From: Ruminiclostridium papyrosolvens DSM 2782
GTDB taxonomy: Bacteria; Bacillota; Clostridia; Acetivibrionales; DSM-1351
Assembly: GCF_029318685.1 (NCBI RefSeq)
Contig: NZ_CP119677.1
Location: forward strand, 3,835,001-3,899,000
Length of the DNA: 64,000 nucleotides
Reading direction: 5' to 3'
The translations under genes and the position numbers were made by a program. Positions 10,955 to 45,942 of the stretch are shown one piece after another. Numbering within the stretch: the stretch's first letter is position 1; every line of letters begins with the position of its first letter. A model generated the notes under the pieces. The model did not search any database, had not been told where the DNA came from, and was given only the letters and a program-made list of their open reading frames with translations.

Positions 10955-11008
10955 AAAAATCCCCCTAAACGTAAGGTATGATTACCATCTACGTTAGAGG
11001 GATTTTTT
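10955..11008. terminator. Bidirectional terminator between convergent genes
   Basis: Arms reading roughly AAAATCCCCCTAAACGTA and its near-complement TACGTTAGAGGGATTTTT flank a 16-base loop, with A-runs and T-runs at the outer ends. It serves the iron importer on the plus strand. Its right arm overlaps the last codons and stop of the decarboxylase gene on the minus strand. Confidence 0.8.
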
Positions 11009-11416: not shown

Positions 11417-11763
11417 TCTTAAACACTCCTTATAATACATAGGCACTATATCTTAATTTTTACACCTTTTTATATTTGTAGCAATTATATTATTATCAAC
11501 CTTATTTTAACAAATTTTTAGCAATAAATAAACTGTTTTTATTTATGTTTCCAATGCTTCCATTTTGTTCAACAGAGATATACTATATATAATACCCACA
11601 TTTACGCCAAATTTGATATAATCTTTCAAATTAATTCTATAATTTGTTAAATTTTCCAACTATGTATTGGAACTTTTTTACTTTCATGGTAAAATTACTT
11701 ATATCTCAATGTGAAACAATTGGTTTCTGAATTTGAGAAATCTTATAATGGATGGGTGTTTCA
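11417..11763. other. Divergent intergenic region of about 350 bases
   Basis: This very AT-rich spacer separates the decarboxylase (minus) from the methylthiotransferase-like gene (plus). It holds the plus-strand promoter listed separately. A weaker minus-strand candidate (TTGATA near 11495-11500 with AT-rich -10 options) could serve the decarboxylase. I see no ORF, riboswitch-like fold or long repeat in it. Confidence 0.5.
11667..11695 (+). promoter_or_regulatory. Promoter of the methylthiotransferase-like gene
   Basis: TTGGAA (11667-11672) and TAAAAT (11690-11695) are spaced by exactly 17 bases, about 70 bases before the start codon. Confidence 0.6.
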
Positions 11764-16758: not shown

Positions 16759-16773
16759 CTTCTCCTAACATTT

Positions 16774-17844: not shown

Positions 17845-17865
17845 TTAAATTTCCCTCACTCCCTC

Positions 17866-19257: not shown

Positions 19258-19278
19258 ACTTCTTACCTCTTGAACTTT

Positions 19279-20172: not shown

Positions 20173-20173
20173 A

Positions 20174-21280
20174 TTAAATGCCCTCCTCCTCAGATAACAT
20201 ATCGCTAAAAAGCTTTAATAGTTTCTTCGTACGTTTTCCCGAGTACAGAGGTATATCGGCTATTTCATCATATGTCATTTTATTATCCAGATATAGATTC
20301 AACATATCCAAAGACGTGAAGCAAGAGCGGCAGCAATCTATTCTCGGCCTTTTCTGCAAGAAAAGAGTGTACATTTTTTCATTTTTTATATTATTTAAAA
20401 CAGTTTCTTTGTCGTTCTCCAAAACATTACCCAATTCTGTAGTCCATGAGTTTGGACATGGAGTAAGCTTGCCGTCGTCAAATAGCTGAATCATTGTTCT
20501 GGGAATATTGCACCTTAATGTCCTATTACCTGTCAGCAGGTTTGAAAGTTCTTCAAAATATGCCTTACAGGGTATTACCTCCCGGTAAAAATCATATTTA
20601 CTTACAATATCGTTAAACTTATCTATATCCTTTTCATTTGGATAAAACTGTTTTCTTAAGTCTCCTCTCACCGGGAACGGATATACTTTAACCTTTCCTT
20701 CAAACCGTCTCAGATAATCCATAAACTCAGCATAATTTCCTGTATTTGCGTCGGTAAGTACGCTTCCTATTTCTATAAAAAACCCTAAATCCACTGCTGA
20801 TTGCAGATTATTTAACAGGACTTCCTGCATTTGCTTATTTTTTACCCTGTAGCGGTTTTGCTCGTATGTACTGCCGTCCAGAGAAATATGAAGCTGGCAA
20901 TTGGGAAGATTTTTTAACTTTTTAAGTCTGTCTTCCGTTAAAAGAAATCCATTTGTGATAATCTGTACAGTTTCGTAACTATCCTGCTTGTTTAAAAAAT
21001 CTTCAATCCCCTGAATTAGTAAAATCTCTCCACCGCTAATTCTAAGTATGGCAGCGTCAAATATGGAATTAAAATTATTTATAACCTTATCCAGACGTTT
21101 ACCTAATCCGGACTCTTCATTATAAAGAAATTTTTCTGCAACGCCCTTTGTTATTTCCCATTCCGGTGCCTCGCTGGAGAGGCAGTAACTGCATGAGAAA
21201 TTGCATTTATCCGGCCTTACAACAAAATCATTAAATACAAGCTGTATTTTTTCATCTGATTCATTTTTCAAAAAGTGCAT
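20174..21280 (-). CDS. Radical SAM protein with C-terminal cysteine-rich extension (copy B)
   Basis: This paralogue of 16774-17844 has 368 residues, with C26, C30 and C33 (CNFSCSYC) and the C-terminal cysteine set CPNSW and CCRSCF. ISGGE is the GGE motif. The start is placed at ATG 21280, whose first base is the last base of the preceding gene's stop (TAATG). The longer frame from 21298 would run inside that gene. Two related enzymes in one cluster suggest two similar chemical steps or a heterodimer. Confidence 0.75.
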   Translation of the reverse strand: MHFLKNESDEKIQLVFNDFVVRPDKCNFSCSYCLSSEAPEWEITKGVAEKFLYNEESGLGKRLDKVINNFNSIFDAAILRISGGEILLIQGIEDFLNKQDSYETVQIITNGFLLTEDRLKKLKNLPNCQLHISLDGSTYEQNRYRVKNKQMQEVLLNNLQSAVDLGFFIEIGSVLTDANTGNYAEFMDYLRRFEGKVKVYPFPVRGDLRKQFYPNEKDIDKFNDIVSKYDFYREVIPCKAYFEELSNLLTGNRTLRCNIPRTMIQLFDDGKLTPCPNSWTTELGNVLENDKETVLNNIKNEKMYTLFLQKRPRIDCCRSCFTSLDMLNLYLDNKMTYDEIADIPLYSGKRTKKLLKLFSDMLSEEEGI

Positions 21281-21987
21281 TATATCACCGCTTCCCATAT
21301 CCGTTCTATATTATGTCCCTGTATTATGCTGCCGGAATGAGTTATGACAGCACGAATTTCCCTGTCCTTAATCTGACTTTTATAAAGAGACATGATTTCA
21401 GCTTTTCTTTGAGTAAAGCCGTCTATCTCAATAAAGCTTTCTTTAAGCTTACAAGGGCATGATTCAAGAGTCTGATTCATCCAAGCCTTATTTAACCCAT
21501 AAGGCAGTTCCTCGTATAAAAACAGTCTTACATTTTTCCGCTGACTATGCCGCCAATCCAACACAACCTCTCGGGTAATAAGGTGATCCACATGTGCTCC
21601 GCATCCCAAGGGTATAAATATAATGTCCGGATTTATTTTTTCTACCAGATAGTCAAATCTATCGTAAACCTTTTCTCCCAGTTGTTTTTCTTTAAAATCG
21701 GCAAATGAAAAGTTCAATATATCACTTAATCGTGCATACCCACGCAATCCCGCTTCCGGCAAATCGTCCATAACAAGACTGACACCGAGAGCCTGCATAG
21801 CTGCCTCTTCTTCCCTTTTAATCTGTTCCTTTGCATCTGTTTCATTACTGCTTGCGACTGAATATTCCTGTTGAGAAAAAACATCCCAAACTGTTATATC
21901 TGCCTCGTGATTTTTTAGAATAAAGCCTCCTAAAGAAAAACAAGCATCATCAGGGTGCGGAGATACAATCAATACCTTCCCGGTCAC
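21280..21987 (-). CDS. PIG-L (LmbE) family N-deacetylase
   Basis: The 235-residue protein has the zinc-binding start SPHPDDACFSLGG and the second metal motif AHVDH. PIG-L enzymes remove N-acetyl groups from sugars such as GlcNAc conjugates (BshB, MshB, BtrD-type). With the GT4 transferase at 29609-30763 this suggests transfer of an N-acetylhexosamine followed by deacetylation. The GTG at 21987 has GGAGG 9 bases upstream; the frame overlaps the end of the next gene upstream by 38 bases. Confidence 0.88.
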   Translation of the reverse strand: MTGKVLIVSPHPDDACFSLGGFILKNHEADITVWDVFSQQEYSVASSNETDAKEQIKREEEAAMQALGVSLVMDDLPEAGLRGYARLSDILNFSFADFKEKQLGEKVYDRFDYLVEKINPDIIFIPLGCGAHVDHLITREVVLDWRHSQRKNVRLFLYEELPYGLNKAWMNQTLESCPCKLKESFIEIDGFTQRKAEIMSLYKSQIKDREIRAVITHSGSIIQGHNIERIWEAVI

Positions 21988-22837
21988 TTTTAAATTCCTC
22001 CATTATTTTATTTATGCATTGATAAAGTCCGGCTAAACGTTCACGGTCTTCCATGCCCGATTTTTGGAAAGCCTCAATTGCACCAAATCCTTCATAACCT
22101 GTATTATTGAGGTTTTTTAAAATATCATTCCAGTCAGCTTCTCCGTTTCCCGGGTCAACAAACTCATAAATGGTTCCTCTTCTTTTTCTGAAATCAGTAA
22201 AGTGCAGTTTTTTAATTCTGTCCTTTAAACAATTAATCCAGTGCTGAGGGTAACTGTTCAGAAGAGTGTTTCCTAAGTCAAGACACACCGCCAAAGCCGG
22301 TGAATTTATATCGTCGCAATATTGGGCAAATTCCACAGGTCCTAAGAGAAAACCGTGCCATACATTTTCAGCACATAATATTATGCCTGCTTTTTCAGCA
22401 CTACAGGACAATTTGTAAACCTGCTCCTGAGATATCTTCCATGCATCCCTGTAATCAGTGCAAGGACTTATCTTTCCGGGAGAAATTGAAACTGTTTGAA
22501 GCCCCAGCTCCGAAGCAATATCTATCATTTTTTCACATATGGAAAATGCCAGTTTTCTTTCATGGGAATCCTCTGAAATCAAGCTGATATCATTTAGCAG
22601 TAAAGTTGAAAGACTGCTTAAAGCCAATTCATTTTCTTTGAGTTTTCCTGATATTGTTCTGATATCCTGCAATCTTGAATTCATGCTGATATCCCCATCT
22701 TTGTAAAATGAAGCCTCAAGGGCATCAAAGCCCGCGTCTTTCGCCTTACGGGCCGCATCTATAACAGATATTTCTCCTGTCGTCCCACCGTTTAAAGCCC
22801 AAATAGTAACCGCAGATTTCATTTTGATTAATCCCAT
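21950..22837 (-). CDS. Sugar phosphate isomerase/epimerase (AP endonuclease 2-type TIM barrel)
   Basis: The 295-residue barrel has the expected metal ligands spread along the strands: CAENVWHG, CLDLGNTL, KLHFTDF and GAIEAF. The family interconverts sugars, keto sugars or cyclitol precursors, including 2-keto-myo-inositol and inosose enzymes. It lies 11 bases after the aminotransferase gene, so a keto sugar or inosose handed to that enzyme is plausible. ATG 22837 has AAGGAG at good spacing. Confidence 0.8.
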   Translation of the reverse strand: MGLIKMKSAVTIWALNGGTTGEISVIDAARKAKDAGFDALEASFYKDGDISMNSRLQDIRTISGKLKENELALSSLSTLLLNDISLISEDSHERKLAFSICEKMIDIASELGLQTVSISPGKISPCTDYRDAWKISQEQVYKLSCSAEKAGIILCAENVWHGFLLGPVEFAQYCDDINSPALAVCLDLGNTLLNSYPQHWINCLKDRIKKLHFTDFRKRRGTIYEFVDPGNGEADWNDILKNLNNTGYEGFGAIEAFQKSGMEDRERLAGLYQCINKIMEEFKSDREGIDCISAP

Positions 22838-22848
22838 ATACTGCTCCT

Positions 22849-24087
22849 TTACTTTTTTTTGAGTTCATCAAGGTTGTCTCTTATTTTCTTTATGCCTCCT
22901 GCAATTTCGTCCATATCCTGTCTGTCTCCCAGTAACAATGACTGTGGAAGCCACACAGCTTCCCGACATACATTTTCGGCAACAGGGCACCGCTTTTCAA
23001 ATACAGAATAATCATAATCCTCATATAGCTTGAAAAGAGGATTTTTATACAAAGGATACTCATAACCTGCCTGACATTCTATTCCTTCTGCGTTAAGTGC
23101 CATTAGAAAGCGCATTTTGCTCAAGTTTCTCCATTGTTCCTTTTTATAACTGAAGGTAAACAAGTGGTAAACCCTGTCCCCCGCCTTTTCCAAAGTAATA
23201 GTAGGCTCTATACCCTCTATCTCCTTTAGACAGCTAATAAGGTATTCTGCGTTTTCCTTTCTTTTCTTCTCCCGTTCTTGAAATTTGTTTAACTGTGAGC
23301 ATGCCAATGCAGCTTGCAGTTCCGTAATTCTATAATTTGAACCGAGAATTTCATGTTGGTACCACTTTCCATTTATTGCTCTTCCTGCCATATGTAGTGA
23401 AAAGGCACGTTTATAGTAGTCAATATTATTTGTAATAAGCACTCCGCCTTCTCCGCAGGTAGTATTCTTTGAGGACTGCAGGCTAAAACATGTTATATCA
23501 CTATTGCTTCCTACCGGCTCATTCCCCCAGTATGCCCCCAGTGCATGTGCAGCATCTTCAATAATCTTGAGATTATGTCTTTGTGCCAAATTTCTGATGG
23601 CATCCATATCAGAGGACTGCCCTGCAAAATGAACAAGCAGAATAGCCTTAGTTTTAGAAGTAATGCACTTTTCAATACTGTAGGAGTCAATATTCCAGGT
23701 ATCCTTGTTTATATCCGCAAATACAGGAATAGCTCCTGCCTTTAAAATACAGGATGCACTTGCAATAAAAGAATACGGCGTTACTATAACTTCATCTCCG
23801 GGCCTGATATCCTCAATAGCTTGAACTGCCAGTTCCAAAGCCGTAGTGCCGCTGGTCACTGCAAGAGCATATTTACATGAATGAAGCTCGGAAATCCTTT
23901 GCTCCAGTTCTTCTATAAAGCCTTTATAAGAGTTGGGATTTAAAAAGCTGTCATTCCCGCTTCTGGCCCATCTTCTGCTGTGCAAGGCTTTAAGAACGGC
24001 TTTGTCGTCTTCCTCCGAAATTATAGGATAATCGGGAAACGGTTTGCTTTTTATTTTGTTTCCGCCCGTAATTGCCAAAATCCCCAT
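22849..24087 (-). CDS. DegT/DnrJ-type PLP aminotransferase, AHBA-synthase/inosose subgroup
   Basis: The 412-residue enzyme transfers an amino group, usually from Gln or Glu, to a keto sugar or cyclitol. Landmarks are YALAVTSGTTALELA, EDAAHALGA and the Schiff-base Lys in SLQSSKNTTCGEGG. The proline-rich start (PFPDYPIIS) and the ending RCPVAENVCREAVWLPQ resemble AHBA synthases (RifK-like) and scyllo-inosose aminotransferases more than sugar 4-aminotransferases; this is my reading from memory. It may make a 3-amino sugar or an aminocyclitol, or aromatise an aminodehydroshikimate. Confidence 0.85.
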   Translation of the reverse strand: MGILAITGGNKIKSKPFPDYPIISEEDDKAVLKALHSRRWARSGNDSFLNPNSYKGFIEELEQRISELHSCKYALAVTSGTTALELAVQAIEDIRPGDEVIVTPYSFIASASCILKAGAIPVFADINKDTWNIDSYSIEKCITSKTKAILLVHFAGQSSDMDAIRNLAQRHNLKIIEDAAHALGAYWGNEPVGSNSDITCFSLQSSKNTTCGEGGVLITNNIDYYKRAFSLHMAGRAINGKWYQHEILGSNYRITELQAALACSQLNKFQEREKKRKENAEYLISCLKEIEGIEPTITLEKAGDRVYHLFTFSYKKEQWRNLSKMRFLMALNAEGIECQAGYEYPLYKNPLFKLYEDYDYSVFEKRCPVAENVCREAVWLPQSLLLGDRQDMDEIAGGIKKIRDNLDELKKK

Positions 24088-24118
24088 GATTATTCACACC
24101 CTTTACCTTTGTGCATTT

Positions 24119-25252
24119 TTATTTATTATCCTTCTGCATTTTAATGCAAGTAGGATCGCTTTTCATAATAGTCCCGTAATATTTGTATGCCACCGCAGGA
24201 CAGCCTCCTCTGCAGGTTCGCCAGTATTCGCACTCACTGCATGGTTGTTGGGCTTTTATTATATCTTCTCTTTCTTTCATGACTGCACTCCTACTATCCC
24301 AATTGCCCAATATTTCTGCTACACTGCTTTGCCTCAAATCACCTGCTATAAATTCTTCCATGCTGTACATGGCGGTACATCCGGTAAATTTGCCCTCTGA
24401 TGTAATAACCACACTATTTTTAAATGCCATGCAACTCATCAGTGGATCAAATTCAACCGATATTTTTATATTGTAATTCTCCTCAAAACGCTTTTTATAT
24501 GGCATTAGAGGCTGCATACAAAACCCCGGAAGTACAAGAGTTATATCGAGTGGCTTTTTTGCCCTGCAATTGTTTTTTTCTATCCATTCAATTACATTTG
24601 TATAGATGTCTATAAAGCTGTCAATGTTCAAATTTTCTTCAAACATGGCGCCGTTTACTGACACGTCCAGAAGCCTTAACAAATTAATGTATCTTAGGTT
24701 ATGTTCCAGTGCAAACTGCAAAATATTTTCTATCTGTGTGCAGTTATCCTGCATTATCAAGAAATTAACTCCGATATTTTCAAAACCAGCTTTTTGTATT
24801 TCCGTCAAACCCTCAATAGATTTTGCATATGCGTTTTTATCGCCTCTTATGGCATTGTGTTCATCCTCTATGGTGGAATCAAAAGAAATATATAAGCGGT
24901 CTATTCCCGACAAAACAGGCTTTAAATTGTCTAAGCGGTCTTTTATTAATGTCCCGTTGCTTACAACAAACAGCTGAGTATTATCATATGACTTGATTTC
25001 TTTTAAAATTTCCGTTGTATCATCTCTTAATAAAGGTTCCCCTCCGCTAATATCAAACTTTCGTACACCACATTCATATAAATCGGAAATGAGTTTTTTA
25101 TATTCATCCAAAGTCAATTCTTTTTTTAAGCTTTGAACGTTTTGATGACCGCCGGAATAGCACATCTTACAATGTAAATTGCATAACAAGGTAGGATACA
25201 AATATGCTGTTTTTGGAAAAGCTTTTGTACTTAAATCTTTATTTTCTCCCAC
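24119..25252 (-). CDS. Radical SAM/SPASM enzyme
   Basis: The 377-residue protein has C24, C28 and C31 (CNLHCKMC), SGGEP and a classical C-terminal SPASM segment (CSECEYWRTCRGGCPAVA) binding auxiliary Fe-S clusters. SPASM enzymes commonly modify peptides or sugars, for example by crosslinking or dehydrogenation. The GTG at 25252 is preceded by AAGGGTG. Its neighbours are the BtrH-like acyltransferase and the aminotransferase. The substrate is unknown. Confidence 0.85.
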   Translation of the reverse strand: MGENKDLSTKAFPKTAYLYPTLLCNLHCKMCYSGGHQNVQSLKKELTLDEYKKLISDLYECGVRKFDISGGEPLLRDDTTEILKEIKSYDNTQLFVVSNGTLIKDRLDNLKPVLSGIDRLYISFDSTIEDEHNAIRGDKNAYAKSIEGLTEIQKAGFENIGVNFLIMQDNCTQIENILQFALEHNLRYINLLRLLDVSVNGAMFEENLNIDSFIDIYTNVIEWIEKNNCRAKKPLDITLVLPGFCMQPLMPYKKRFEENYNIKISVEFDPLMSCMAFKNSVVITSEGKFTGCTAMYSMEEFIAGDLRQSSVAEILGNWDSRSAVMKEREDIIKAQQPCSECEYWRTCRGGCPAVAYKYYGTIMKSDPTCIKMQKDNK

Positions 25253-25267
25253 AAATAATCACCCTTA

Positions 25268-26374
25268 TCAGCCGGTTGTACATAAAATATTTTTCATGCA
25301 GGCTATATTTTCAGTTTCTTTTGAAATAAGCATTTGGAGGAAGTTCAATGCTTTGTCCAAGTACTGCATGGAGTCAAACATAGAATATCTGAACAGGTTT
25401 ATCCCCATACTTCTCCAATAAGTTGTAAGGTCTGTTATATTGTTCTTTAGCGTCACAAGGTCTTCCTGTACACTGCTTTCTTGGGAATAATCCTCAAGAA
25501 ACTTTTGAATAAGCCCAAGCATACAGATTGGTCCGCCAAAGGATGTTATATTTTTATACAGTTCCACAAGTATATCCTTTTCACTGTTTTGACGTGTCAT
25601 TTCAGTGTTCATGAATGTTTTAAAAGCCTCAAGGGCTTTTGTCCCCGTAGAATATATAAAGCAGTTTTTACCTATATCAATTCGGTTGTCAGTTGACGCC
25701 TCTTCAAAATTATTTACTGTGTTGATAATATAGTTTTTAAATACTTCTGAGGCACCGGGAAATTTCAAACACTTACTGTCTGCGGGATGCAGCGTCCACG
25801 CTATTTTCTTTCCGTGGTTTATCCTTACACCTGTAAAGTCCAAAGCTTTAATAAAAGCTTCCATACTCAAAAGGCCGTTGTAGCTCTGAACTGGAGTAGA
25901 CGGAATATAGTTGTCTATAACATTTACAAAGCCATCCTCAGATATTCCATACACTATTATGTAATGGGCATAACTGTCGATTATATTTTCCGGCCAATAA
26001 TTCATATGCAATGAATTTACATTCACAATAACAGGCATATCAGATTTTAATGAAGTCTTTATAAACTCCATAAATTCATCAGTTGTGTCATACATATGTT
26101 GTTCAAGCATCATTCCGGCTTGGGATAGAATTTTATCCAAACCTTTCCTTTCAACATCAGCATCAAAGCACTGTAAACAAGGGGTTCTTTCACTGCCATT
26201 TCCGGACACCCAATACCCGAACCTGTTTTGATATCCAATGGAAGAATAAAACCAGGATTCACGCATTTCCAGAGAGAAGTAGCCTGAAACCGAAATTAAG
26301 TTGCTTATAAAACAGTTGTCCCCTGTTATTTCACGCAGTCTTTCTCTATTACTTATTACCACGTTGCCCTTCAC
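25268..26374 (-). CDS. BtrH-like cysteine acyltransferase
   Basis: The protein has about 368 residues. The first 170 look like the BtrH N-terminal/C39-like papain fold: Cys21 in NCFISNLIS, His137 in YAHYIIVYG and Asp154 in NVIDN would be the catalytic triad. BtrH moves an acyl group from an acyl carrier protein to an amine of an aminoglycoside in butirosin biosynthesis. The rest is a helical domain. A matching role, moving an acyl chain from a discrete ACP here to an amino sugar or polyamine, is inferred. Start choice: GTG 26374, or GTG 26362, which has the better-spaced AGAGGTG. Confidence 0.65.
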   Translation of the reverse strand: MKGNVVISNRERLREITGDNCFISNLISVSGYFSLEMRESWFYSSIGYQNRFGYWVSGNGSERTPCLQCFDADVERKGLDKILSQAGMMLEQHMYDTTDEFMEFIKTSLKSDMPVIVNVNSLHMNYWPENIIDSYAHYIIVYGISEDGFVNVIDNYIPSTPVQSYNGLLSMEAFIKALDFTGVRINHGKKIAWTLHPADSKCLKFPGASEVFKNYIINTVNNFEEASTDNRIDIGKNCFIYSTGTKALEAFKTFMNTEMTRQNSEKDILVELYKNITSFGGPICMLGLIQKFLEDYSQESSVQEDLVTLKNNITDLTTYWRSMGINLFRYSMFDSMQYLDKALNFLQMLISKETENIACMKNILCTTG

Positions 26375-26381
26375 CTCTCAA

Positions 26382-28097
26382 TTATGTACCTGTTTTTAAA
26401 ATATCACCGAAGCATTCAATTTCGTACTCATCTATGATACAAACAATAACCCTGCTGAACTCGCCCACATTTACTTCGTTTTTCGATAGACATTCTTTTG
26501 TTGCCAATAAAATATTTTTTATCAGCTCTCCTATTTGGTCTCTCCACTTTTTTATGCCTATAATTTTTGTCAGAATTTCCTGCCTTGACTCTTTTTTATT
26601 GCTGTTTGAACGCATTTGCCTGAATTCACTGCTCATATAATCCGGAAAATAGTCCTGAATCAGCCATGTCAGCTTATTGATATACGGCACCAAGACTTCC
26701 CAGACCTTTTCCACATCATCATCAAAAATTTTATATTCTCTTGCAAGCATTTCTTTACAGATTGCAACCAGGTCATTCTCATTTTTCACCGGCTTGGTTA
26801 TAACCGACATATCAGGTGAGTCCAATTTCCCTTCATCTCTTAAAAGACGTTCGGCTTCACTTCCCCTAAACAGAACCATCTTGTTGAACATATTCATAGG
26901 TACGTTATCTTCGTATATTTTTGATTCAACGATAAAGTCTATAGTATCAATTAAATCTTGCTTGGTAGTACTCGGACTAACCATAATCATAGCCGGTTCA
27001 AGCATAAATCCGTGACTTTTTACCATTTCAACTGCTCTCAAATTTCTTTCAACGGTAACACCTTTTCTCCAAAGATTCAGCAATCGCTGAGAACCGCTTT
27101 CAAGTCCTAACAGTAAATCTCTGAGTCCCGCTTTTTTCAAAAGATTCAGAAGGTCCGGCTTTATGGAGTCAACACGTATTTCTGCATGGAAGTTGATTTT
27201 GATATTGTTTTCAATTATCTTATTACAAAAAACTTCCAATCTTTCCAACGCCTTGCTGCCGTAGCCAATAAAATTAACATCGCAAAAATACAGATATTCC
27301 ACTCCAAATTCCTTAACAAGAAATTCAACTTCTTCATAGAGTGATTCCCCGCTTCTGCATCTCCATTTTTCAAGCTCAAGACAGCTTGACGAAGGCGCTG
27401 TACAATAAATACAATTCCCCCTGCAGCCTCTGCTTGAATAAATCGAAGCAGTCCTTGTACTGTAGCCTTGATTTTTCAAATAGTACAAGCTGTCTCTGGC
27501 TGCAAACGGCAAAACAGATAAATCAGAAATAGTCTCTTTCTTTTGGTTATATACAGCTTCCCCGTTATGCATGTATGCCAGTCCGTCTATATCCTTCCAG
27601 GACTGCTTGCTTTTCAATCTGTTGACAAGGGTGAGCATTGGAAGTTCACCTTCTCCCAGAATTACAGAGTCTATCCCTACGGTTGAATTCAAAAGGAACT
27701 CGTATATAAAGGATGCACAAGGGCCACCTATGGTAATATGTCCCTTGTACCCTCTCTTCCTGAGATTAAAAATAACCTCCATAGTGTTATAAAGGTGCAG
27801 CTCATAAAGAATACTGAAGCCCACCATAACAGGATTGTCCGCCAGTATTTCGTCCTCAATCTGCCTATTGCTTTTATTTTCTATATTGCTGTTAATTATT
27901 TTTGTGGGTATATTGTTTTGCCTCAAATATGCTGCCAGACAGGCAATCCCCAAGTTTTCCCTATACCTGTTTATAAAACCGTTAAACAGAGGATTCAAAG
28001 ACAGATTCTTTGTGTCTTCTCGTATGGCAGTTTCTCTGAAAACGTTTCTGATGCTAATATTTTTCTCCATGCAGGCAACTAAAACAGCATCCACCAT
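26382..28097 (-). CDS. B12-binding-type radical SAM enzyme (BchE/class B-like)
   Basis: The 571-residue protein has a cobalamin-binding-like domain (about 45-160, with GGPCASF and ILGEGE), then a radical SAM barrel with C225, C229 and C232 (CRGNCIYC). A long C-terminal region follows. The LGLESGSQRLL and AMIMVSPSTT segments are typical of this class. Class B enzymes methylate sp3 carbons or build rings. The stop lies 1 base before the next ORF boundary, directly after an ACP gene, so an ACP-bound substrate is possible. Confidence 0.8.
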   Translation of the reverse strand: MVDAVLVACMEKNISIRNVFRETAIREDTKNLSLNPLFNGFINRYRENLGIACLAAYLRQNNIPTKIINSNIENKSNRQIEDEILADNPVMVGFSILYELHLYNTMEVIFNLRKRGYKGHITIGGPCASFIYEFLLNSTVGIDSVILGEGELPMLTLVNRLKSKQSWKDIDGLAYMHNGEAVYNQKKETISDLSVLPFAARDSLYYLKNQGYSTRTASIYSSRGCRGNCIYCTAPSSSCLELEKWRCRSGESLYEEVEFLVKEFGVEYLYFCDVNFIGYGSKALERLEVFCNKIIENNIKINFHAEIRVDSIKPDLLNLLKKAGLRDLLLGLESGSQRLLNLWRKGVTVERNLRAVEMVKSHGFMLEPAMIMVSPSTTKQDLIDTIDFIVESKIYEDNVPMNMFNKMVLFRGSEAERLLRDEGKLDSPDMSVITKPVKNENDLVAICKEMLAREYKIFDDDVEKVWEVLVPYINKLTWLIQDYFPDYMSSEFRQMRSNSNKKESRQEILTKIIGIKKWRDQIGELIKNILLATKECLSKNEVNVGEFSRVIVCIIDEYEIECFGDILKTGT

Positions 28098-28367
28098 TTA
28101 CACCTCTACTTTTAAGTTATATATAAACTCGGATAATTTTTCTGCATCCTGCAGCAAATCAATATTCAGGTACTCATCTGATATTTCTATATCAAACTTT
28201 TGCTCTATTTTCAAAAGCAGTTCCAGTGCATCAACTGAATTGAGCATAAAAGCCGAAGCAATATTGCAGTTTAACGCAATAGAATCAACGCCCTTGTCCT
28301 TGCAATATGTTTCTACAATAAGTTCTTTTAAATCATTCTGAATTTGTGCTAAATTTTCGTTTGCCAT
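28098..28367 (-). CDS. Discrete acyl carrier protein 1
   Basis: The 89-residue helical acidic protein has an attachment serine at Ser44, in FMLNSVDALEL. The usual DSL motif reads NSV here. The following IEQKFDIEISDE helix is typical of ACPs. It lies between two radical SAM genes (23 bases after one, 0 after the other), which suggests that one or both act on its thioester. It carries no catalytic part. Confidence 0.85.
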   Translation of the reverse strand: MANENLAQIQNDLKELIVETYCKDKGVDSIALNCNIASAFMLNSVDALELLLKIEQKFDIEISDEYLNIDLLQDAEKLSEFIYNLKVEV

Positions 28368-28390
28368 ATTTATCTCTCCTTACAGTTTTA

Positions 28391-29320
28391 TTATTTATTT
28401 ACAAAACCGGAGAACTCACTGAAAAATGTCTCCGTGTTAGCTTTTACGCAGTTTATACAGCTGTCCAGTTGTTTTCCATTTTCCAATACATTTTCATAAC
28501 GCTGATAAACCTCTGTCAGTTCATCAGAACAGACATTGCCGTAAATTTCTGCCGGGCCGAAAAAATCACAGCCGCATTTTAGAAAGTCGCCGTTTGTTCC
28601 TATAGTATCCTGATATTTGGGAACAAGACACCATGCCGGTAATTCAAAATTGGGAAGGGTATGATGATTTTCATCCAACAAGACTTTATCAAAGTCCTTC
28701 AGGTTGCCTGCTCTGTTCCATATAGGCTTACTACCGGCAAAATCTATTTGTTTTTCTTCCCAAAACCTTTGAATTTCCTCACTTGTTGATTTCACCACTG
28801 ATAATTCGTTTGATATTATCAATAGTTTGGTCTCTGTAATGTTGTTATCCCTTAAATAGTCCCTTACCCCAAGTACATTATCCAATGTAATATCAAAATC
28901 CAGATCCAGTGCAGCCTTATAGTCTTCTTTTGTTATTGCATGTACACTGACATTAATCTGGTTAAGTCCGCTTTTGACCAGTCCTTCAACTCTTTTATGG
29001 GTCAACAGCTGACCGTTTGTTATAATTTCCGATGGGTATCCGTTTTGAGTACACAGCTTTATGTATGACTCCAGATTTTTATTCAGTAAAGGCTCTCCGC
29101 CGCCTGCAAAAAGAAACTTGGGTTTTCGTTCCTCTGCTTCGGAATAATAACGGTTATATACTTCAATAACTTTTTTAAAAGTGTCCGGTGACATGAATAA
29201 GGCCGAATCTAATCTTCTTGTACTTGGACAATGAATGCACTTTGCATTACACTGATTAGTTGTCTCTACTTCCACCTGACTGCAATTATGCTTTACGCTA
29301 AATAACTCAGAAAATGACAT
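28391..29320 (-). CDS. Radical SAM enzyme with SPASM/twitch-like C-terminus
   Basis: The 309-residue protein has C24, C28 and C31 (CNAKCIHC), FAGGGEP as GGE motif and a C-terminal cysteine set (AWC, KCGCDFFG, SCINCVK). It is similar in size to the dehydrogenating radical SAM enzymes of aminoglycoside routes (BtrN-like, about 250 residues) and to small SPASM enzymes; the sequence does not decide between them. It lies between two ACP genes, so an ACP-tethered or cyclitol substrate are both open. Confidence 0.75.
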   Translation of the reverse strand: MSFSELFSVKHNCSQVEVETTNQCNAKCIHCPSTRRLDSALFMSPDTFKKVIEVYNRYYSEAEERKPKFLFAGGGEPLLNKNLESYIKLCTQNGYPSEIITNGQLLTHKRVEGLVKSGLNQINVSVHAITKEDYKAALDLDFDITLDNVLGVRDYLRDNNITETKLLIISNELSVVKSTSEEIQRFWEEKQIDFAGSKPIWNRAGNLKDFDKVLLDENHHTLPNFELPAWCLVPKYQDTIGTNGDFLKCGCDFFGPAEIYGNVCSDELTEVYQRYENVLENGKQLDSCINCVKANTETFFSEFSGFVNK

Positions 29321-29351
29321 ATATCTCTCCTCGAACCATAATAGTTCTTTA

Positions 29352-29594
29352 CTATACTTTTAAGGTATCTACGTATTCTGCAACACTATTTAAGGTTTTG
29401 TAGTCCTTAAAACTGAATTTTGATTCGTCAAACTGAATTCCCAACTCTGCTTCCAATAACACCAAAAGCTTTATCAGAGTTATTGAATTCATACCCAGAT
29501 TAGTTAATTCCGCGTCAAGATCCACTTTGTAATTTTCATCTTCGTTCAAACACTTTCTTACACATTTTTGTATACTTTCTTTTGTTTCTGTCAT
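29352..29594 (-). CDS. Discrete acyl carrier protein 2
   Basis: The 80-residue carrier protein has Ser37 in LGMNSITLIKLL as the phosphopantetheine site (MNS in place of the common GDS). The ELGIQFDESKFSFKDYKTLNSVAEYV ending is typical of ACP/PCP helices III and IV. It is 15 bases downstream of the GT4 gene. Confidence 0.88.
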   Translation of the reverse strand: MTETKESIQKCVRKCLNEDENYKVDLDAELTNLGMNSITLIKLLVLLEAELGIQFDESKFSFKDYKTLNSVAEYVDTLKV

Positions 29595-29608
29595 ATTTCA
29601 TATCCCCC

Positions 29609-30763
29609 TTAATTATTTTTCATAACATTATGATACATATCACTCATAGCTTTGATTTCAGCTTCAAAATCAATGGATTTACTCCACGCTATGCTGTTAT
29701 CCCTGCATTTTTTATATAAAGCTTCATTATCCAAGAGACTGTCAATGGCATTAGCCATTTTGTCAGTATCCATGAAAGGCACCTTTATCCCGTTATAGCC
29801 GTCACGCAGCCATTCATCCACACCGCCTATTTCAGCAAAAGCAACCAATGGTATTCCTCTTAGCATAGCCTCATACCCCGGATAACCGTAACCTTCGGCA
29901 TAAATAGAAGGAAAAATCATAATTTTTGCCTTATTAAATACATTCAAATATTCTTCATATTTGCTATGTCCCATAAAGATTACTTTATCATCGATGTTGT
30001 TCACTATTGAAAACCTGACAAGGTCTGCTACATAAGCCTTGTCCCCTGTACCTTCAATAAACAGCTTCCAGTTTTTGTTTTTGACTTTTGTGAGGCTTTT
30101 CAGAAGCAATTCCGTTCCCTTGTGATAAACTACCCTTCCCGCAAAAAGAAGTACATTTTCTTCTGCCTGTTTTTCAAAAGTTTTTGGCGGCTTCATAATA
30201 GGAGGCATTTTGAAAATTTTCTCCCTGTCAGCACCCATATTCACCAGATAATTTACATTAGCCTCAGACAGGCAAACATTCATCTTTACTCTCTTGAGTA
30301 AATTAATTTTCTTGTTAAATGCTGCAATATCTTCTTCCTTAATGCAGCCTTCCTTTATACAGAATCGGTTAATAAATTCCTGATCCCTTTTTTCCTTAAA
30401 AAGCGGGTCACACGGACAGTAAGCGTTGTCAAACATAGGACGGGGACAAAAGGGGCCCCAATCGAATACCGATCTTACGGTTACATAATTTTCAATGCAA
30501 TACTCAAAGCATTCATTTTGTAAATCAGAATGTATATGTATGATATCCGGCTTTTGTTCGTCTATGTAGCTGTAAAAATCACCGTCCCCAAGAACATCCA
30601 TGGGCAGCGTCACAAGGCTTTGGTCCAGTTCATACGGCGTATTTTTTAAAGCCAGATAGTGATTTTCAATTCCATATGAACCCAGATTTTCTTCCAATAT
30701 TCTAAGTATTTGATACAGTCCCCCGTGGGGGCCTATATAATCTACTATGTGCAGAATCTTCAT
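29609..30763 (-). CDS. Family 4 glycosyltransferase
   Basis: The 384-residue GT-B fold enzyme has HGGLYQILRIL at the N-terminus, LLFAGRVVYHKGTELLLKSL at the start of the nucleotide-binding half and EGYGYPGYEAMLRG (the EX7E motif) near the C-terminus. GT4 enzymes such as BshA, MshA and BtrM transfer hexosamines from UDP-sugars, and a PIG-L deacetylase often works after them; one is present at 21280-21987. The internal HIHSDLQNE and a cysteine-rich stretch (CPRPMFDNAYCPCDP) are unusual for GT4 proteins. Confidence 0.88.
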   Translation of the reverse strand: MKILHIVDYIGPHGGLYQILRILEENLGSYGIENHYLALKNTPYELDQSLVTLPMDVLGDGDFYSYIDEQKPDIIHIHSDLQNECFEYCIENYVTVRSVFDWGPFCPRPMFDNAYCPCDPLFKEKRDQEFINRFCIKEGCIKEEDIAAFNKKINLLKRVKMNVCLSEANVNYLVNMGADREKIFKMPPIMKPPKTFEKQAEENVLLFAGRVVYHKGTELLLKSLTKVKNKNWKLFIEGTGDKAYVADLVRFSIVNNIDDKVIFMGHSKYEEYLNVFNKAKIMIFPSIYAEGYGYPGYEAMLRGIPLVAFAEIGGVDEWLRDGYNGIKVPFMDTDKMANAIDSLLDNEALYKKCRDNSIAWSKSIDFEAEIKAMSDMYHNVMKNN

Positions 30764-30789
30764 TAAAAGCTCCTCCTATTTACAGAGAG

Positions 30790-31731
30790 TTAATTATTGA
30801 CCTGAAGCAATATGCAGTTATAGTTTACGCTCTTTGAAATTTCTCCTATTGCATAAAATACCATCTTGTCACCTTTTTTCATCTTTCTCTTTTTCATGAC
30901 ATCACGGCAGTTGGCAATCAGGTCTGCATCACCAATATGTGCAATTTCCTTTATGTTGTCCCAGAAAAGAACATCTTTGTTAAGCTCCAACAACAAACAA
31001 AATATTATTTCATATATTTCAATACTAAGGTTTTGATGAAGTACACATGCCAATTCATCCTTACTTACACCATTTCTTTTCAAAAGGTTATTTATTGTTC
31101 TGGAGCATACTTTCATCATTTCAAGATTGTTATTTATTCCAACTTCACCTTCATATTGCTTTGTATTAAAATCAAAGTCTAAAATTTCAATACCGTCATT
31201 CGAGTATTTTATTTCCATTATGGCTGCCGCATCACCTATAATGGAATGGGGTTTATACCTCTCGGTGAAGCCCTCCATCATATTTGCCGTTAAAATTATT
31301 GCGACCTCATTTTCCCTTAAAAGCCTGCTTGCCATTCCAATTGTCCATACACAGGACCCGCACTGCTGATTTATTTCTGAAACAGAAGCATTTTCAATAT
31401 TAAACTTTTCTTTTATGTAATTGGGAACGCTTGTTATCCCGCCATCTGTCAGGGATGTTGCTATGTCAGTGTAAAATATGTACTTGATACTATTTTTGTC
31501 TATATTGGTTTCATCAAGATACTTTTGTACAAGCTCCTCGAAAATACTCAATATATTGCGTTCATTCTCAATAGCAATTTTGTCAAAGCCTGCTTTTTCT
31601 ATAAAATACTTCTCAACCTCAGCGGCATTTTGCGGGTCAGGGAATAGCTCATCCTTACATTTTTCAAAAAATTCATGTACACAAATTGTATTACCGGGTA
31701 AATAATAATCCATATAACCTATACTCGCCAT
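30790..31731 (-). CDS. KAS III-like thiolase-fold enzyme with altered triad
   Basis: The 313-residue FabH-like protein has its likely nucleophile at Cys124 (INQQCGSCVWTIGMA), a second Cys127, and His232 (LHQNLS). The family Asn falls at Asp268 (HIGDADLIA), so the triad reads Cys-His-Asp. That argues against ordinary chain-starting condensation. KAS III-like enzymes of tetronate routes join a glyceryl-ACP to an acyl chain. The neighbouring ACP and FkbH-like genes make that comparison attractive, but no PKS partner is in view. A 165-base gap precedes the gene. Confidence 0.8.
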   Translation of the reverse strand: MASIGYMDYYLPGNTICVHEFFEKCKDELFPDPQNAAEVEKYFIEKAGFDKIAIENERNILSIFEELVQKYLDETNIDKNSIKYIFYTDIATSLTDGGITSVPNYIKEKFNIENASVSEINQQCGSCVWTIGMASRLLRENEVAIILTANMMEGFTERYKPHSIIGDAAAIMEIKYSNDGIEILDFDFNTKQYEGEVGINNNLEMMKVCSRTINNLLKRNGVSKDELACVLHQNLSIEIYEIIFCLLLELNKDVLFWDNIKEIAHIGDADLIANCRDVMKKRKMKKGDKMVFYAIGEISKSVNYNCILLQVNN

Positions 31732-31896: not shown

Positions 31897-32154
31897 TTAT
31901 TTATCCGAACAACCGCTGTCAAACAAAAAATCAGTTAGGCTACCCACGGTTTCCAAGCATTCCAGTTCCAAGTCCTCTTCTATTATATCTACTTTAAAAT
32001 TGCTCTCTATTTTATTAATAAAACTGGTAATGGTCAAAGAGTCCATAATTCCGCCCTGTCCAAGTAATACTGTATTTTCATTGAAAATATATTTATCTTT
32101 TTGAAGTACTTCCTTCAGCATTTCACACACCTGATTGTATATTTGTTCCTTCAT
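31897..32154 (-). CDS. Discrete acyl carrier protein 3 (FkbH partner)
   Basis: The 85-residue ACP has Ser39 in GIMDSLTITSFI. Its start overlaps the end of the FkbH-like gene by 4 bases, a strong sign that it is the carrier that FkbH loads with a glyceryl unit. The acidic C-terminal helix (IIEEDLELECLE) is typical. A GGAGAG ribosome site precedes ATG 32154. Confidence 0.9.
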   Translation of the reverse strand: MKEQIYNQVCEMLKEVLQKDKYIFNENTVLLGQGGIMDSLTITSFINKIESNFKVDIIEEDLELECLETVGSLTDFLFDSGCSDK

Positions 32155-33185
32155 TTATTCTCTCCATATATTATTTTTAGCCATTCTATTAACATTTCTT
32201 TGACTTTCTCAGCGTCTAGCCTTAGGAAAAAACTTTTCCCCGACTTTTCTATTGTTTCAAATCCCAAAAGCTTCAATAGCAAATATGCAGGTTTATTATT
32301 TTCTCTCTTTTCATAGGTACATTCAATATTTTTTATGTAAGGTTTTTCTTTTTCCAAACTAAGCATAGCACTGTTTAGAAAAGCTGTCCCTATTCCCCGA
32401 CCTTCAATACGGCAGGAAATGCAAAACAAGTCTAAAACCGCATTTTCAGAATTTAAGCTAAACATACTTACCCCTACAATACCATGTTCTCCGAAAATAT
32501 CAGTAAGCTCACAAACAAATATAGCCTTGCTGCTATCCGTAGCATATTCTTTTAAAGAATTCAAATCCAAACGTGTGTGGAGGTTATTCATTTGATTAGT
32601 CCTGTGAACCAACTCAAAAACACGGTTGAGGTCTGAGTCCTTATAGGCACGTATTGTAAGGGTCATACAGCACTCTTTTAAAAATTCTTCCCGTGTACCT
32701 AAAAATGCTTTTTCAGCCTGTAACCTTTTTTCTCTCTTTTCCATAAGCTCTCTATGGTTTGATAAAGAGGGAAAAGTTTCAGATAAGGACTTTATCTGTT
32801 CTTCAAGCAAAAGCTTGTCTTTTATATTAAAAACCTTTACCTCCGGCAGGAATCTCTTTACTTCATACAGCTCAAAATCATTATCATCCACAAATGCTAT
32901 GCTGTCCGGGCTTATATTGAAATGGACGGATATCCTTTTAATACTCTCGGCTTTTGAGCTATCCGATATTTCAGGATTAATAAAAAATTTATCTATTTTT
33001 AATTCCCTGATTTTATAAAGAGCAGCGGAATAATCATTTCTGCTTGCAATAGTCTGTATAATGCCCATTTCGTCTGCCATCTTTATTGTGCTTACAACGT
33101 CCTCTTTGAGTCTCACATCAGAATTGTATTTTAATGTGCCATCCCAAACAGTATCATCCAAATCCCAAACAATGCACTTAATCAT
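32151..33185 (-). CDS. FkbH-like HAD/GNAT protein (glyceryl-ACP synthase type)
   Basis: The 344-residue protein has a HAD phosphatase-like domain with D8 and D10 in DLDDTVWDG, the later FVDDNDFEL motif, and a C-terminal GNAT-like domain with RTNQMNN (RTNQFN in relatives). FkbH-type enzymes take 1,3-bisphosphoglycerate, dephosphorylate it and load a glyceryl unit on an ACP for methoxymalonyl or tetronate units. The overlapping ACP and the KAS III-like gene downstream complete the trio known from tetronate clusters. The product in this cluster is unknown. Confidence 0.88.
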   Translation of the reverse strand: MIKCIVWDLDDTVWDGTLKYNSDVRLKEDVVSTIKMADEMGIIQTIASRNDYSAALYKIRELKIDKFFINPEISDSSKAESIKRISVHFNISPDSIAFVDDNDFELYEVKRFLPEVKVFNIKDKLLLEEQIKSLSETFPSLSNHRELMEKREKRLQAEKAFLGTREEFLKECCMTLTIRAYKDSDLNRVFELVHRTNQMNNLHTRLDLNSLKEYATDSSKAIFVCELTDIFGEHGIVGVSMFSLNSENAVLDLFCISCRIEGRGIGTAFLNSAMLSLEKEKPYIKNIECTYEKRENNKPAYLLLKLLGFETIEKSGKSFFLRLDAEKVKEMLIEWLKIIYGENK

Positions 33186-33219: not shown

Positions 33220-34491
33220 CTAAAAATTTATCCCCGGTATAATCCAACTGGGGTGCTTAACGGACTCTGCTTTTACTATTTCCACAATACAGTCTTTTAC
33301 TTCAGGTGCAATATAAAAGTGAGGTTCAGTCAAGTCGGTATCTATATTAATAACTCCCTCCTTGATTGCCAGATAGTATAGGGGAGTTTTAGGATATATT
33401 CTCATACCTATAACAATTCCCGTTGATTCAGGCTCTGTCTTTTCAAGTAATGAAAAGGTTTCGTTCAGTGTTTCTTCCGTTTCGCCCGGGCCTCCCAAAA
33501 TAATATTGAAGTAAACCGGCATATCCTGTAGTTTACATTCTTCTGTAGCTTTATAGATTGCTTTAGTATCGCAGCTCTTGCCATAACGCTTCAACACCTC
33601 GTTACTTCCCGAGTCCATCCCTAAATCTACCCCCTCACAGCCTGTATCTTTAAACAGTAAAATATCTTCTCTTGTGAGATTGCCCAAATCGACGCTTCCT
33701 GTCCAGCATACCGGAAGTTCTCTTCTCTTTATCTCCTGAGCAATACTACGGCTATGCTCTACAGGGTCATTAAAAACACTGTCTGTAAATAAGAAGTAGT
33801 TTATGCCCATGGTTTTTATATAAAACTCCATTTCATTTACCACATCTTCCGGCTTACGTAAATGACATGTACGTCCCTCAATAATCGGGTATGTACAGTA
33901 AATACAATTATAGTTACAACCTCTTTTGGTTGTTATGCCTATACTCCCGTGAAACTGCTTGTACCATTCAAAATTGAACTTGGCATTAAGTTCTATTAAC
34001 TGTTGAGAAACGGTAAAGGGATTTTCATACAGGTCTTCCGTATCATATATAATCAAATGCGGAGGGTCTTCATTATTTTGAAGCTTCTCCAGAAGCTTGG
34101 GAAAACTTTTCTCTCCCGGCCCTATAATACCGTAATCAGCTTCTGTTATATCCAAAATCTCTTTAGGCATTATTGAAAATCCTGCACCGCCTAAAATAAT
34201 TTTACCTTGATAACCGTCTTTCCTTATTTGAGAAACTAAAACCTTTAACTCCGGGATGAAAGATTTATAGTTAAGATAAACAACATTGTCCAAATTTCTC
34301 ATGGAAATACCTATAATATCAGGTTGAGCCTCCCTTATTCTTTGAAGGGCTTCTTCTGTTGTCAGCAGGTTTAAGTCCACAAAATCAACTTCATGCTGCA
34401 TCATAATTGACTTTGCAATTATGTAAGCCCCTATAGGAAATACAGGGTGAGGAAAACGTTCCTGATTGACGGATATCAATAATATCTTCAT
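33220..34491 (-). CDS. B12-binding-type radical SAM enzyme
   Basis: The 423-residue protein starts as a cobalamin-binding-like domain (MKILLISVNQERFPHPVFP, with IILGGAGFS near 98-106 and YGIIGPGE). The radical SAM barrel follows with C192, C196 and C199 (CNYNCIYC). ILGGPGETEET is typical of the class. The start is set at ATG 34491, since the longer frame from 34557 would overlap the upstream gene and adds an unrelated sequence; GGAGG lies 12 bases upstream, a little far. It could C-methylate or rearrange a pathway intermediate; the substrate is unknown. Confidence 0.8.
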   Translation of the reverse strand: MKILLISVNQERFPHPVFPIGAYIIAKSIMMQHEVDFVDLNLLTTEEALQRIREAQPDIIGISMRNLDNVVYLNYKSFIPELKVLVSQIRKDGYQGKIILGGAGFSIMPKEILDITEADYGIIGPGEKSFPKLLEKLQNNEDPPHLIIYDTEDLYENPFTVSQQLIELNAKFNFEWYKQFHGSIGITTKRGCNYNCIYCTYPIIEGRTCHLRKPEDVVNEMEFYIKTMGINYFLFTDSVFNDPVEHSRSIAQEIKRRELPVCWTGSVDLGNLTREDILLFKDTGCEGVDLGMDSGSNEVLKRYGKSCDTKAIYKATEECKLQDMPVYFNIILGGPGETEETLNETFSLLEKTEPESTGIVIGMRIYPKTPLYYLAIKEGVINIDTDLTEPHFYIAPEVKDCIVEIVKAESVKHPSWIIPGINF

Positions 34492-34513
34492 TTGGTTAAA
34501 CAACCTCCAATGG

Positions 34514-34966
34514 TTAAAATTTATATTCCATAGATAAGTGTGTAGGTTTAAATCCAAATTCCTTATACAAAGCTCTCATGGATATGTTGTCTATAAATAC
34601 CTTGCCCACAACCATATTTGCCTGTACGCTTTTACAAAAATCCATTGCAAACTTCATTAATTCTCCCGTTAGCTCTGTGCCCTGAAATTCTTTCACTATA
34701 TAAAAACTACGGAAGTTAATATACTTTTCGTTTGTTAAAAAGTTTATTTTTTCATCCATCCACAGCCATCCGGATATTTTTTCATCCACTGTTAATACAA
34801 ACATTCCTTCCGGATTTTTCTTATAACTCTTCAAGAGCTTTTTCTGGTGGACATCCAAATCCGTTACTGCAGTATCCCCGAAAGATATAATGCATATTTC
34901 CTTTTCAAAATCCGCAATAGTGAGTATATCCGATTCCTTTATTGGTCTTATATCTACTTTATCCAT
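34514..34966 (-). CDS. GNAT-family N-acetyltransferase
   Basis: The 150-residue protein has the GNAT layout, with IRPIKESDILTIADFEKE at the N-terminus and FRSFYIVKEFQGTELTGELMKFAMDF covering the acetyl-CoA-binding strand and loop; the usual Q/RxxGxG/A is poorly kept (QGTELTG). It starts 2 bases after the polyamine synthase gene ends, so acetylation of a polyamine, for self-protection or tailoring, is a reasonable inference. Other small amines are equally possible. Confidence 0.75.
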   Translation of the reverse strand: MDKVDIRPIKESDILTIADFEKEICIISFGDTAVTDLDVHQKKLLKSYKKNPEGMFVLTVDEKISGWLWMDEKINFLTNEKYINFRSFYIVKEFQGTELTGELMKFAMDFCKSVQANMVVGKVFIDNISMRALYKEFGFKPTHLSMEYKF

Positions 34967-34968: not shown

Positions 34969-36144
34969 TTATCCCTTTTTTATAAGATTAAATTTATTTG
35001 TATTGCATTTCAAACATCCCTGTGATTTAAGCTGCTCAACTGTTGTAATTTTTTGATTTATTCCAACCATATATTTCTCACTGCACTGTTTACACTCATA
35101 TGTTCTTACTGTCTGTTTAAATTTTCCGGTATATATTTCTTCGCTGTATACACCTGATATTACTTCTTTCGTATACTGGGTAGTAGTGGTAAGTACCATC
35201 AGGTCACTTACACCGCCAAGTATTTGTGCTCCTTCGTATGAATTAAATTTGGAATATATATCTGACAAAATCAAGCCTTCGCTTACAAACAACTGCTGCA
35301 TTAAAAATCTCACCTGTGGCGTTTTATGTGCAAAGGAAAGAAATAGGCATAGATTGGATTCCTTTTTTAGTATGGATATGCCTCTGCTTAAAAACAGATT
35401 CAAACCGTTCAATGTATACGGAGGATCAGTAATAACGCAATCAAACTTATTTTTGTATTCATTATCAATAGGATTGCAAAAATCATGCTGCACACAATCA
35501 ATATCAATCCTATACTTCTCTGAATTCTTTTTAATATAGGCCAGTATTCTCTTATCAATATCAAAAACAGTAATATCCGCCATTTTATCCAAGTTGTCAC
35601 TTACTGCTATATGCTTTAATACCAGGACAATAGCTATACTTATTAAATCATCATCTCCTACGCAAGCTATTTTTTTACCTATCAGGCAGCCTGATTTAAG
35701 CATAAGTACAGCCCTCTTTATCCCTGTTTCGGCTGTACACTTGGATTGGTCAACTTCCACATCAACCTCCGGCCTGCTATCATAAACCTGTCTTAATTCC
35801 TCAATCTCATTTTCAAAGCTGTCAAGGTCAATATCCGGATTTTCAAGGATGTCATCTAAAACATCCATATCCACATTTTTATACCCCAGCACATCCTTCA
35901 CATAATACTCTCCGACTTCTGTCAAACATATGCCGTTACTTAAATCTGCGATTCCGTTCTTTTTAAACTCATTTTTCATGGCAGATACTACAGGAACCGG
36001 TAAATTCAGCATCCGAGACATTTCCTTTACGGAAATACCTCTGTACATATATGCATTTACAAGAAATTCCTTGAGGACTGCTATACCTTCTTCCAAGTGT
36101 ACATTTTCATATACTTTACAAACAACATCCTTCACATCTTGCAT
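34969..36144 (-). CDS. bpsA: BpsA-type branched-chain polyamine synthase with added zinc ribbon
   Basis: The 391-residue protein has a winged-helix-like N-terminus (about 20-85) and a Rossmann-type domain with GDDD at 163-166, FDID near 194-197 and DPPYT at 240-244. These match N4-bis(aminopropyl)spermidine synthase, known mainly from thermophilic archaea and bacteria. BpsA transfers aminopropyl groups from decarboxylated SAM to the secondary amine of spermidine. A C-terminal four-cysteine zinc ribbon (C351, C354, C377, C380) is an addition I do not recall in archaeal BpsA. The decarboxylase at 10994-11416 can supply the donor. Its place in a biosynthetic operon suggests product building. Confidence 0.8.
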   Translation of the reverse strand: MQDVKDVVCKVYENVHLEEGIAVLKEFLVNAYMYRGISVKEMSRMLNLPVPVVSAMKNEFKKNGIADLSNGICLTEVGEYYVKDVLGYKNVDMDVLDDILENPDIDLDSFENEIEELRQVYDSRPEVDVEVDQSKCTAETGIKRAVLMLKSGCLIGKKIACVGDDDLISIAIVLVLKHIAVSDNLDKMADITVFDIDKRILAYIKKNSEKYRIDIDCVQHDFCNPIDNEYKNKFDCVITDPPYTLNGLNLFLSRGISILKKESNLCLFLSFAHKTPQVRFLMQQLFVSEGLILSDIYSKFNSYEGAQILGGVSDLMVLTTTTQYTKEVISGVYSEEIYTGKFKQTVRTYECKQCSEKYMVGINQKITTVEQLKSQGCLKCNTNKFNLIKKG

Positions 36145-37126: not shown

Positions 37127-37183
37127 TAAGACACCTCATAATTGTATTTTAAGTGTTTAGGCAAGGCTTGCTCATAATAAAAT

Positions 37184-40604: not shown

Positions 40605-40769
40605 ATTAAGCCTCCATAAGCCTTACGGCATAATCATTTTTAAATATAAATTCCCGGTGGCAGTAAGTTATTCAGTTTTAAGAGTACGTTATTTGGTTTA
40701 CATAAAACTGTTTAATATGCTGCAAATTCACCAGAATAAATTTCTGCCAACCGAGAAATTTGAGTTGTT

Positions 40770-45936: not shown

Positions 45937-45942
45937 CTACCT

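Follow-up and report, generated by a model that had tools for sequence, protein, structure and literature searches.

A divergent BpsA-like protein with a C-terminal Cys4 ribbon in a bpsA–GNAT–FkbH–ACP operon of Ruminiclostridium papyrosolvens and a possible route to acylated polyamines

Introduction

The window analyzed here, 64,000 nucleotides of contig NZ_CP119677.1 from Ruminiclostridium papyrosolvens DSM 2782, holds a gene that the first-pass annotation read as a BpsA-type branched polyamine synthase, embedded in a biosynthetic operon, fitted with an extra zinc ribbon, and recruited to secondary metabolism. This locus raises the question of what a BpsA-like enzyme would make in such company and whether the ribbon and the neighboring genes do mark a recruitment.

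Results

The window protein has the predicted BpsA fold but belongs to a divergent subfamily

The gene and the region of it that encodes the ribbon are as follows.

34969..36144, minus strand: BpsA-like aminopropyltransferase of the DPPYT/HK subfamily with a C-terminal Cys4 ribbon, 391 aa
34972..35094, minus strand: codons for residues 351–391, which form the C-terminal Cys4 ribbon, a putative zinc ribbon assigned from the Cys positions and their conservation

The reading frame has exactly these bounds, and the plus strand there is full of stops. The motifs GDDD (residues 163–166) and DPPYT (residues 240–244) and the cysteines at 351, 354, 377, and 380 are all present as first described, and the protein matches Pfam BpsA_C (PF01861) with 150.6 bits against a cut-off of 27. 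It is the sole BpsA_C protein in the 5.03-Mb genome. A profile search gave no match to the Spermine_synth domain (PF01564) in this protein. The AlphaFold model, built from 30 relatives (pLDDT 88), indicates a BpsA fold. In the fold search, it aligned with Thermococcus BpsA (5XNC) at Z 28.7 over 226 residues (rmsd 2.7) and with Thermus BpsA at Z 28.2, the aligned stretch being residues 101–339 for both, and the first match outside the BpsAs was METTL5 at Z 20.4. An 85-aa ORF with no counterpart found (36145–36402, minus strand) abuts bpsA; it may be what is left of a gene or have arisen by chance.

In a sample of 398 genomes from across the phylum, above-cut-off scores for PF01861 fall into two groups, 205–320 bits and 129–151 bits, and the window protein sits in the lower one. 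We compared 84 members of its subfamily with 30 canonical members from the high-scoring group; the two sets came from different searches, the 84 by motif patterns, and the comparison is thus a contrast between groups and not an unbiased census. Like BpsA itself (EC 2.5.1.128; Thermococcus 5XNC, Thermus 6J27), the subfamily has the Rossmann-like catalytic domain, the GDDD motif for decarboxylated S-adenosylmethionine (dcSAM), present in 84/84, the Asp of DPP, and a tyrosine (Tyr303) that corresponds to Tyr290 of the Thermococcus enzyme (Tk). However, position 243 is Tyr in 84/84 subfamily members (DPPYT) and Glu in 30/30 canonical ones (DPPE or DPVE), while position 273, which aligns with Tk Glu259, is Glu in all 30 canonical proteins and is replaced by His or Asn in the subfamily (His in 82 of 84). 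A review lists Tk Glu259 among the residues that raise the nucleophilicity of spermidine and describes the flexible acidic C-terminal tail of Tk-BpsA as the aminopropyl carrier (PMC12979288). In place of this tail, 83–84 of the 84 subfamily members and none of the 30 canonical ones carry the Cys4 ribbon, and the only near-invariant acids in the subfamily tail are E341 and E370.

The residues held in common on one side and those replaced at 243, 273, and in the tail on the other suggest that the donor side has been kept, whereas the acceptor side and the tail have changed. With the polyamine-contacting glutamates gone from the window subfamily, and likewise the acidic tail that serves true BpsA as carrier, even a polyamine as acceptor is presumed. 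Judged from scores and residue patterns, the window protein is a member of a distant, divergent, and mostly mesophilic Bacillota subfamily of BpsA_C, set apart from BpsA also by its hosts and its operon partners. The first-pass assignment to the aminopropyl transferase family agrees with the fold and with dcSAM as the likely donor, but DPPYT is not the thermophile signature it was taken for, because canonical members have DPPE or DPVE. Similarly, the ribbon is extra only in relation to thermophile-type BpsA; its near-universal presence makes it ordinary for the subfamily. As a mark of recruitment, the ribbon was rejected: it is subfamily-wide, invariant in stand-alone and operon members alike.

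bpsA travels with GNAT, FkbH, and ACP genes

Downstream of bpsA lie the following genes.

34514..34966, minus strand: GNAT, starting 2 bp after bpsA and co-occurring with it among 60 relatives
33220..34557, minus strand: B12-binding radical SAM protein between GNAT and FkbH (TIGR04072, 341 bits, cut-off 360)
32151..33185, minus strand: FkbH-type HAD glyceryl transferase (TIGR01686, 182 bits, cut-off 146.65)
31897..32154, minus strand: acyl carrier protein (ACP), PP-binding, 85 aa, with IMDSLT, overlapping FkbH by 4 bp

The HAD motif DLDDT is kept in the window FkbH, and the operon FkbHs listed have WDLDxTxW. The module is found in the window and in four related clostridial genomes (G002, G047, G051, and G059). 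The order bpsA–GNAT–FkbH–ACP is the same in G002, G047, and G051, and the window differs in that a single radical SAM gene separates GNAT from FkbH, an insertion seen in the window genome only. In G051, bpsA and GNAT are fused as a single 553-aa ORF; in G047, a SpeE-type gene lies downstream of ACP. The distant G059 (33% identity) has these genes at two contig edges, bpsA ending at one and GNAT–FkbH–ACP beginning at the other, with a divergent gene after the latter. Among 60 relatives, GNAT is present in exactly the five that have bpsA (Fisher p 1.8e-7, uncorrected for kinship), while FkbH is widespread, its four best matches being the operon copies. On this gene order and co-occurrence, we regard bpsA–GNAT–FkbH–ACP as a conserved four-gene operon.

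Wider loci were gathered by a scan of genome contigs, from which the best 80 of 348 relatives were taken; the G047 locus (L070, Acetivibrio alkalicellulosi) is also counted among these 80. GNAT and/or FkbH stand directly behind bpsA in 23 of the best 80, mostly with ACP. PKS and KS-AT-ACP-C-FkbH-ACP genes precede the operon in seven loci from Paenibacillus (P. apiarius, P. profundus, and others). By contrast, 47 of the best 80 of 348 have no GNAT, FkbH, ACP, or SpeD within three genes and no consistent neighbor, implying that bpsA can act alone. Recruitment to secondary metabolism in its simple form, which the first-pass annotation had set against finding the same gene in unrelated contexts, is not upheld, since such contexts account for these 47 loci, a part of the sample.

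On a BpsA tree of the same best 80 of 348 relatives, a biased sample, the operon label changes nine times, at least four of them forced by well-supported branches, and operon-type BpsAs as one clade were therefore rejected. Ancestral presence and absence of the operon tie at equal costs in this sample, with presence favored if gain costs more than loss. The window protein clusters with those of G002 and L051, both of operon type (support 97).

Two further features were observed in Paenibacillus. A MutS_V-domain protein (L108:12983–14842, L100:8016–9998) adjoins the bpsA operon, lying between ACP and SpeD in P. fonticola and ahead of bpsA in the elgii/tyrfis group. The PKS-linked bpsA operon of the P. 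apiarius group is followed by an N,N-dimethylformamidase-like protein (L106:13269–15572) that has a lectin-type domain.

SpeD links the locus to dcSAM

10994..11446, minus strand: SpeD, S-adenosylmethionine decarboxylase, the genome's only one and predicted source of dcSAM (TIGR03330, 112 bits, cut-off 75.65)

This gene lies within the window, 23 kb downstream of bpsA. Within the genus, SpeD occurs in two of 11 genomes, G000 and G002, the same pair that has bpsA; in the order as a whole, SpeD is often present where bpsA is not. The speD gene of G002 is located 3.1 kb from bpsA and ends a compact run, bpsA–GNAT–FkbH–ACP–RmlB–speD. SpeD also adjoins bpsA in 10 further loci among the best 80 of 348 relatives (Tissierella, Metaclostridioides, Clostridium, Siminovitchia, and others), and speD is again located after the operon in L108. 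The kept GDDD, the genome's sole SpeD in the window, the co-occurrence in the genus, and the adjacency elsewhere make dcSAM a well supported candidate for the donor of the BpsA-like enzyme.

As to potential acceptors, a biosynthetic arginine decarboxylase (SpeA) is present in the genome, which would supply agmatine. No canonical SpeE/spermidine synthase was found in the genome; the sole Spermine_synth match is a 533-aa membrane-fused protein with GNGTG at what we take to be the place of GGGDG in spermidine synthases.

Much of the surrounding cluster is particular to this genome

36446..38712, minus strand: HAD phosphatase, type II dehydroquinase, and GFO/IDH oxidoreductase, a trio missing from G002 that lies upstream of bpsA
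30790..31731, minus strand: ketoacyl-ACP synthase III-like (KAS/FabH-like) protein, genome-specific part of the cluster
15886..30763, minus strand: genome-specific biosynthetic block, absent from G002
13929..14951, minus strand: dTDP-glucose 4,6-dehydratase (RmlB), with an 87% relative directly between ACP and speD in G002

G002 lacks the roughly 17 kb that separates ACP from RmlB in the window and is made up of sugar, radical SAM, ACP, and acyltransferase genes. The block at 15886..30763 encodes glycosyltransferases, radical SAM proteins, a BtrH_N acyltransferase, a DegT aminotransferase, a PIG-L deacetylase, and an AMP ligase, together with two further ACP-like ORFs (29352–29594 and 28098–28367), and the KAS-like gene has only distant matches in other relatives. 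G002 keeps bpsA–GNAT–FkbH–ACP–RmlB–speD without the block, and we rejected the sugar/radical SAM block as part of the conserved unit. The neighbors named at first are in place, with GNAT followed by the B12-binding radical SAM gene and then by sugar genes, but the biosynthetic operon is conserved in its GNAT and, past what was first noted, in FkbH, ACP, and SpeD, whereas the radical SAM gene and most sugar genes are genome-specific, being absent from G002. The radical SAM gene and the ~17-kb block may use the product of the core.

Taken as a region, 13036–31731 (minus strand) is dense in sugar, radical SAM, ACP, BtrH_N, PIG-L, and DegT genes, most of them absent from G002, and has the look of an insertion carrying a biosynthetic cluster whose product would be glycosylated. 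The HAD phosphatase in 36446–38712 is AHBA_synth_RP-like, below the cut-off, and the trio is reminiscent of aminoshikimate (AHBA) genes. Farther upstream, 39882–49839 (minus strand) encodes TrpA-like, Fe-ADH, nucleoside phosphorylase-like, PfkB-like, and isochorismatase proteins and a Bmp-type ABC transporter, conserved at 90–96% in G002, and is probably an operon for taking up and degrading nucleosides. A further biosynthetic run, with a B12 radical SAM gene, an A-T didomain, and more same-strand genes, is seen at 74–4082 (minus strand), on the left edge of the window, and in L020.

Discussion

FkbH enzymes transfer glyceryl groups from 1,3-bisphosphoglycerate to ACPs (PMC7489565, PMC8949500), and two known settings of this chemistry can be compared with the module. 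The glycerate-utilization operon of tetronates (FkbH, ACP, FabH-like, Agg4, Agg5) likewise encodes a free-standing FkbH together with an ACP, and the window genome has a FabH-like gene nearby. However, that gene lies outside the conserved core, no Agg4/Agg5-type domains were found among the scanned ORFs, leaving FkbH and ACP as the only members of the tetronate set in the core, and BpsA and GNAT have no counterpart in the tetronate operon. The C-FkbH-T modules of NRPS/PKS systems (vioprolide, cystomanamide) share the loading of glycerate by FkbH, and the C-FkbH-ACP module that precedes the bpsA operon in the seven Paenibacillus loci is of this kind, whereas the window FkbH is a free-standing protein whose gene is linked to that of an aminopropyltransferase.

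Because glyceryl-ACP loading by FkbH is known, we propose acylation from glyceryl-ACP by the GNAT. In this pathway, SpeD would provide dcSAM, from which the BpsA-like enzyme, with its rebuilt acceptor site, would transfer an aminopropyl group to an amine such as spermidine, putrescine, agmatine, or a product-bound amine. From what is known of its family, FkbH would draw on 1,3-bisphosphoglycerate to charge the ACP with an acyl group derived from glycerate, which the GNAT may then pass to an amine of the polyamine. The putative product, an N-acylated and perhaps branched polyamine, could serve without further change or become part of larger products; the latter is suggested by the PKS/NRPS genes that adjoin the module in certain Paenibacillus and by the sugar/radical SAM block in the window genome. 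The protein family, the modeled fold, the operon, the linkage to SpeD, and the residue changes, all read from sequence, form the ground on which this stands; we infer the acceptor, the acyl group, the use of ACP by the GNAT, and the product. Our leading reading, which we consider an even call, is that a SpeD-supplied four-gene module carries out dcSAM-dependent aminopropylation and glycerate-type acylation of a polyamine. The broader version, in which a retooled BpsA, FkbH, ACP, and an ACP-using GNAT form a pathway widespread in mesophilic Bacillota that yields glyceryl-type acylated polyamines and feeds PKS/NRPS assembly or glycosylation in some hosts, seems to us somewhat short of that. Several observations weigh against glyceryl-polyamines. 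The model of the GNAT resembles many ordinary acetyltransferases, its fold matches do not discriminate between acetyl-CoA and acyl-ACP as the acyl source, and the enzyme could use acetyl-CoA; the acyl specificity of FkbH cannot be read from sequence; and the lost polyamine-contacting glutamates and acidic tail, as well as the 47 of the best 80 of 348 relatives standing outside the module, count on the same side.

A more conventional enzyme would account for part of these data. The match to BpsA_C, the BpsA fold, the many stand-alone copies, and the bpsA–speD pairs would all fit a plain mesophile BpsA that has N4-aminopropyl- or N4-bis(aminopropyl)spermidine as a general-purpose product, with the GNAT only acetylating the branched polyamine and FkbH/ACP acting separately. 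Thermococcus is known to have a branched polyamine in acetylated form (PMC12979288), and the polyamine acetyltransferases DpA and PaiA are among the fold matches of the GNAT. Nevertheless, we think this rather unlikely: both acceptor-side glutamates and the acidic tail are replaced across the subfamily, the genome appears to lack the canonical SpeE to make spermidine, and FkbH and ACP traveling with bpsA and GNAT across classes would be left unexplained. The tyrosine of DPPYT offers another reading, that it stacks on a planar amine or guanidine (e.g., agmatine) or on a nucleobase, as in the (D/N)PP(Y/F) of amino-methyltransferases. DPPY in place of DPPE in 84/84 members, the N6-adenine methyltransferase METTL5 as the next fold match after the BpsAs, and the SpeA gene agree with it, but the likeness comes from motif comparison alone, the FkbH, ACP, and GNAT partners point to a small molecule and not to RNA or DNA, and no RNA/DNA gene is consistently linked in the loci examined, which makes a planar acceptor improbable in our estimate. 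Least credible, to the point of being very improbable, is an ordinary SAM-dependent amino-methyltransferase of natural-product metabolism with no tie to polyamines. Weak matches to N6-adenine and HemK-type methyltransferases and the placement of the operon inside biosynthetic clusters in some genomes hint at one, but the glycine motif for SAM binding has given way to GDDD, the fold scores of BpsA structures far exceed those of methyltransferases, and SpeD is tightly linked.

According to a 2026 review (PMC12979288), BpsA is restricted to thermophiles. A BpsA-fold subfamily without the acidic tail is common in mesophilic Bacillota, and the thermophile-only and tail-carrier statements of that review thus become testable. 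Our literature search found no paper that joins FkbH with polyamine or spermidine, or bis-aminopropyl spermidine synthase with gene clusters; the operon ties polyamine synthesis to carrier-protein chemistry, a link on which we found no paper, and its hosts include genera from which antibiotics are obtained. Overall, our analysis points to an undescribed acylated polyamine as a product of Paenibacillus, clostridia, and similar bacteria, and glyceryl-type acylated polyamines, if confirmed, would be a new class of polyamine conjugate.
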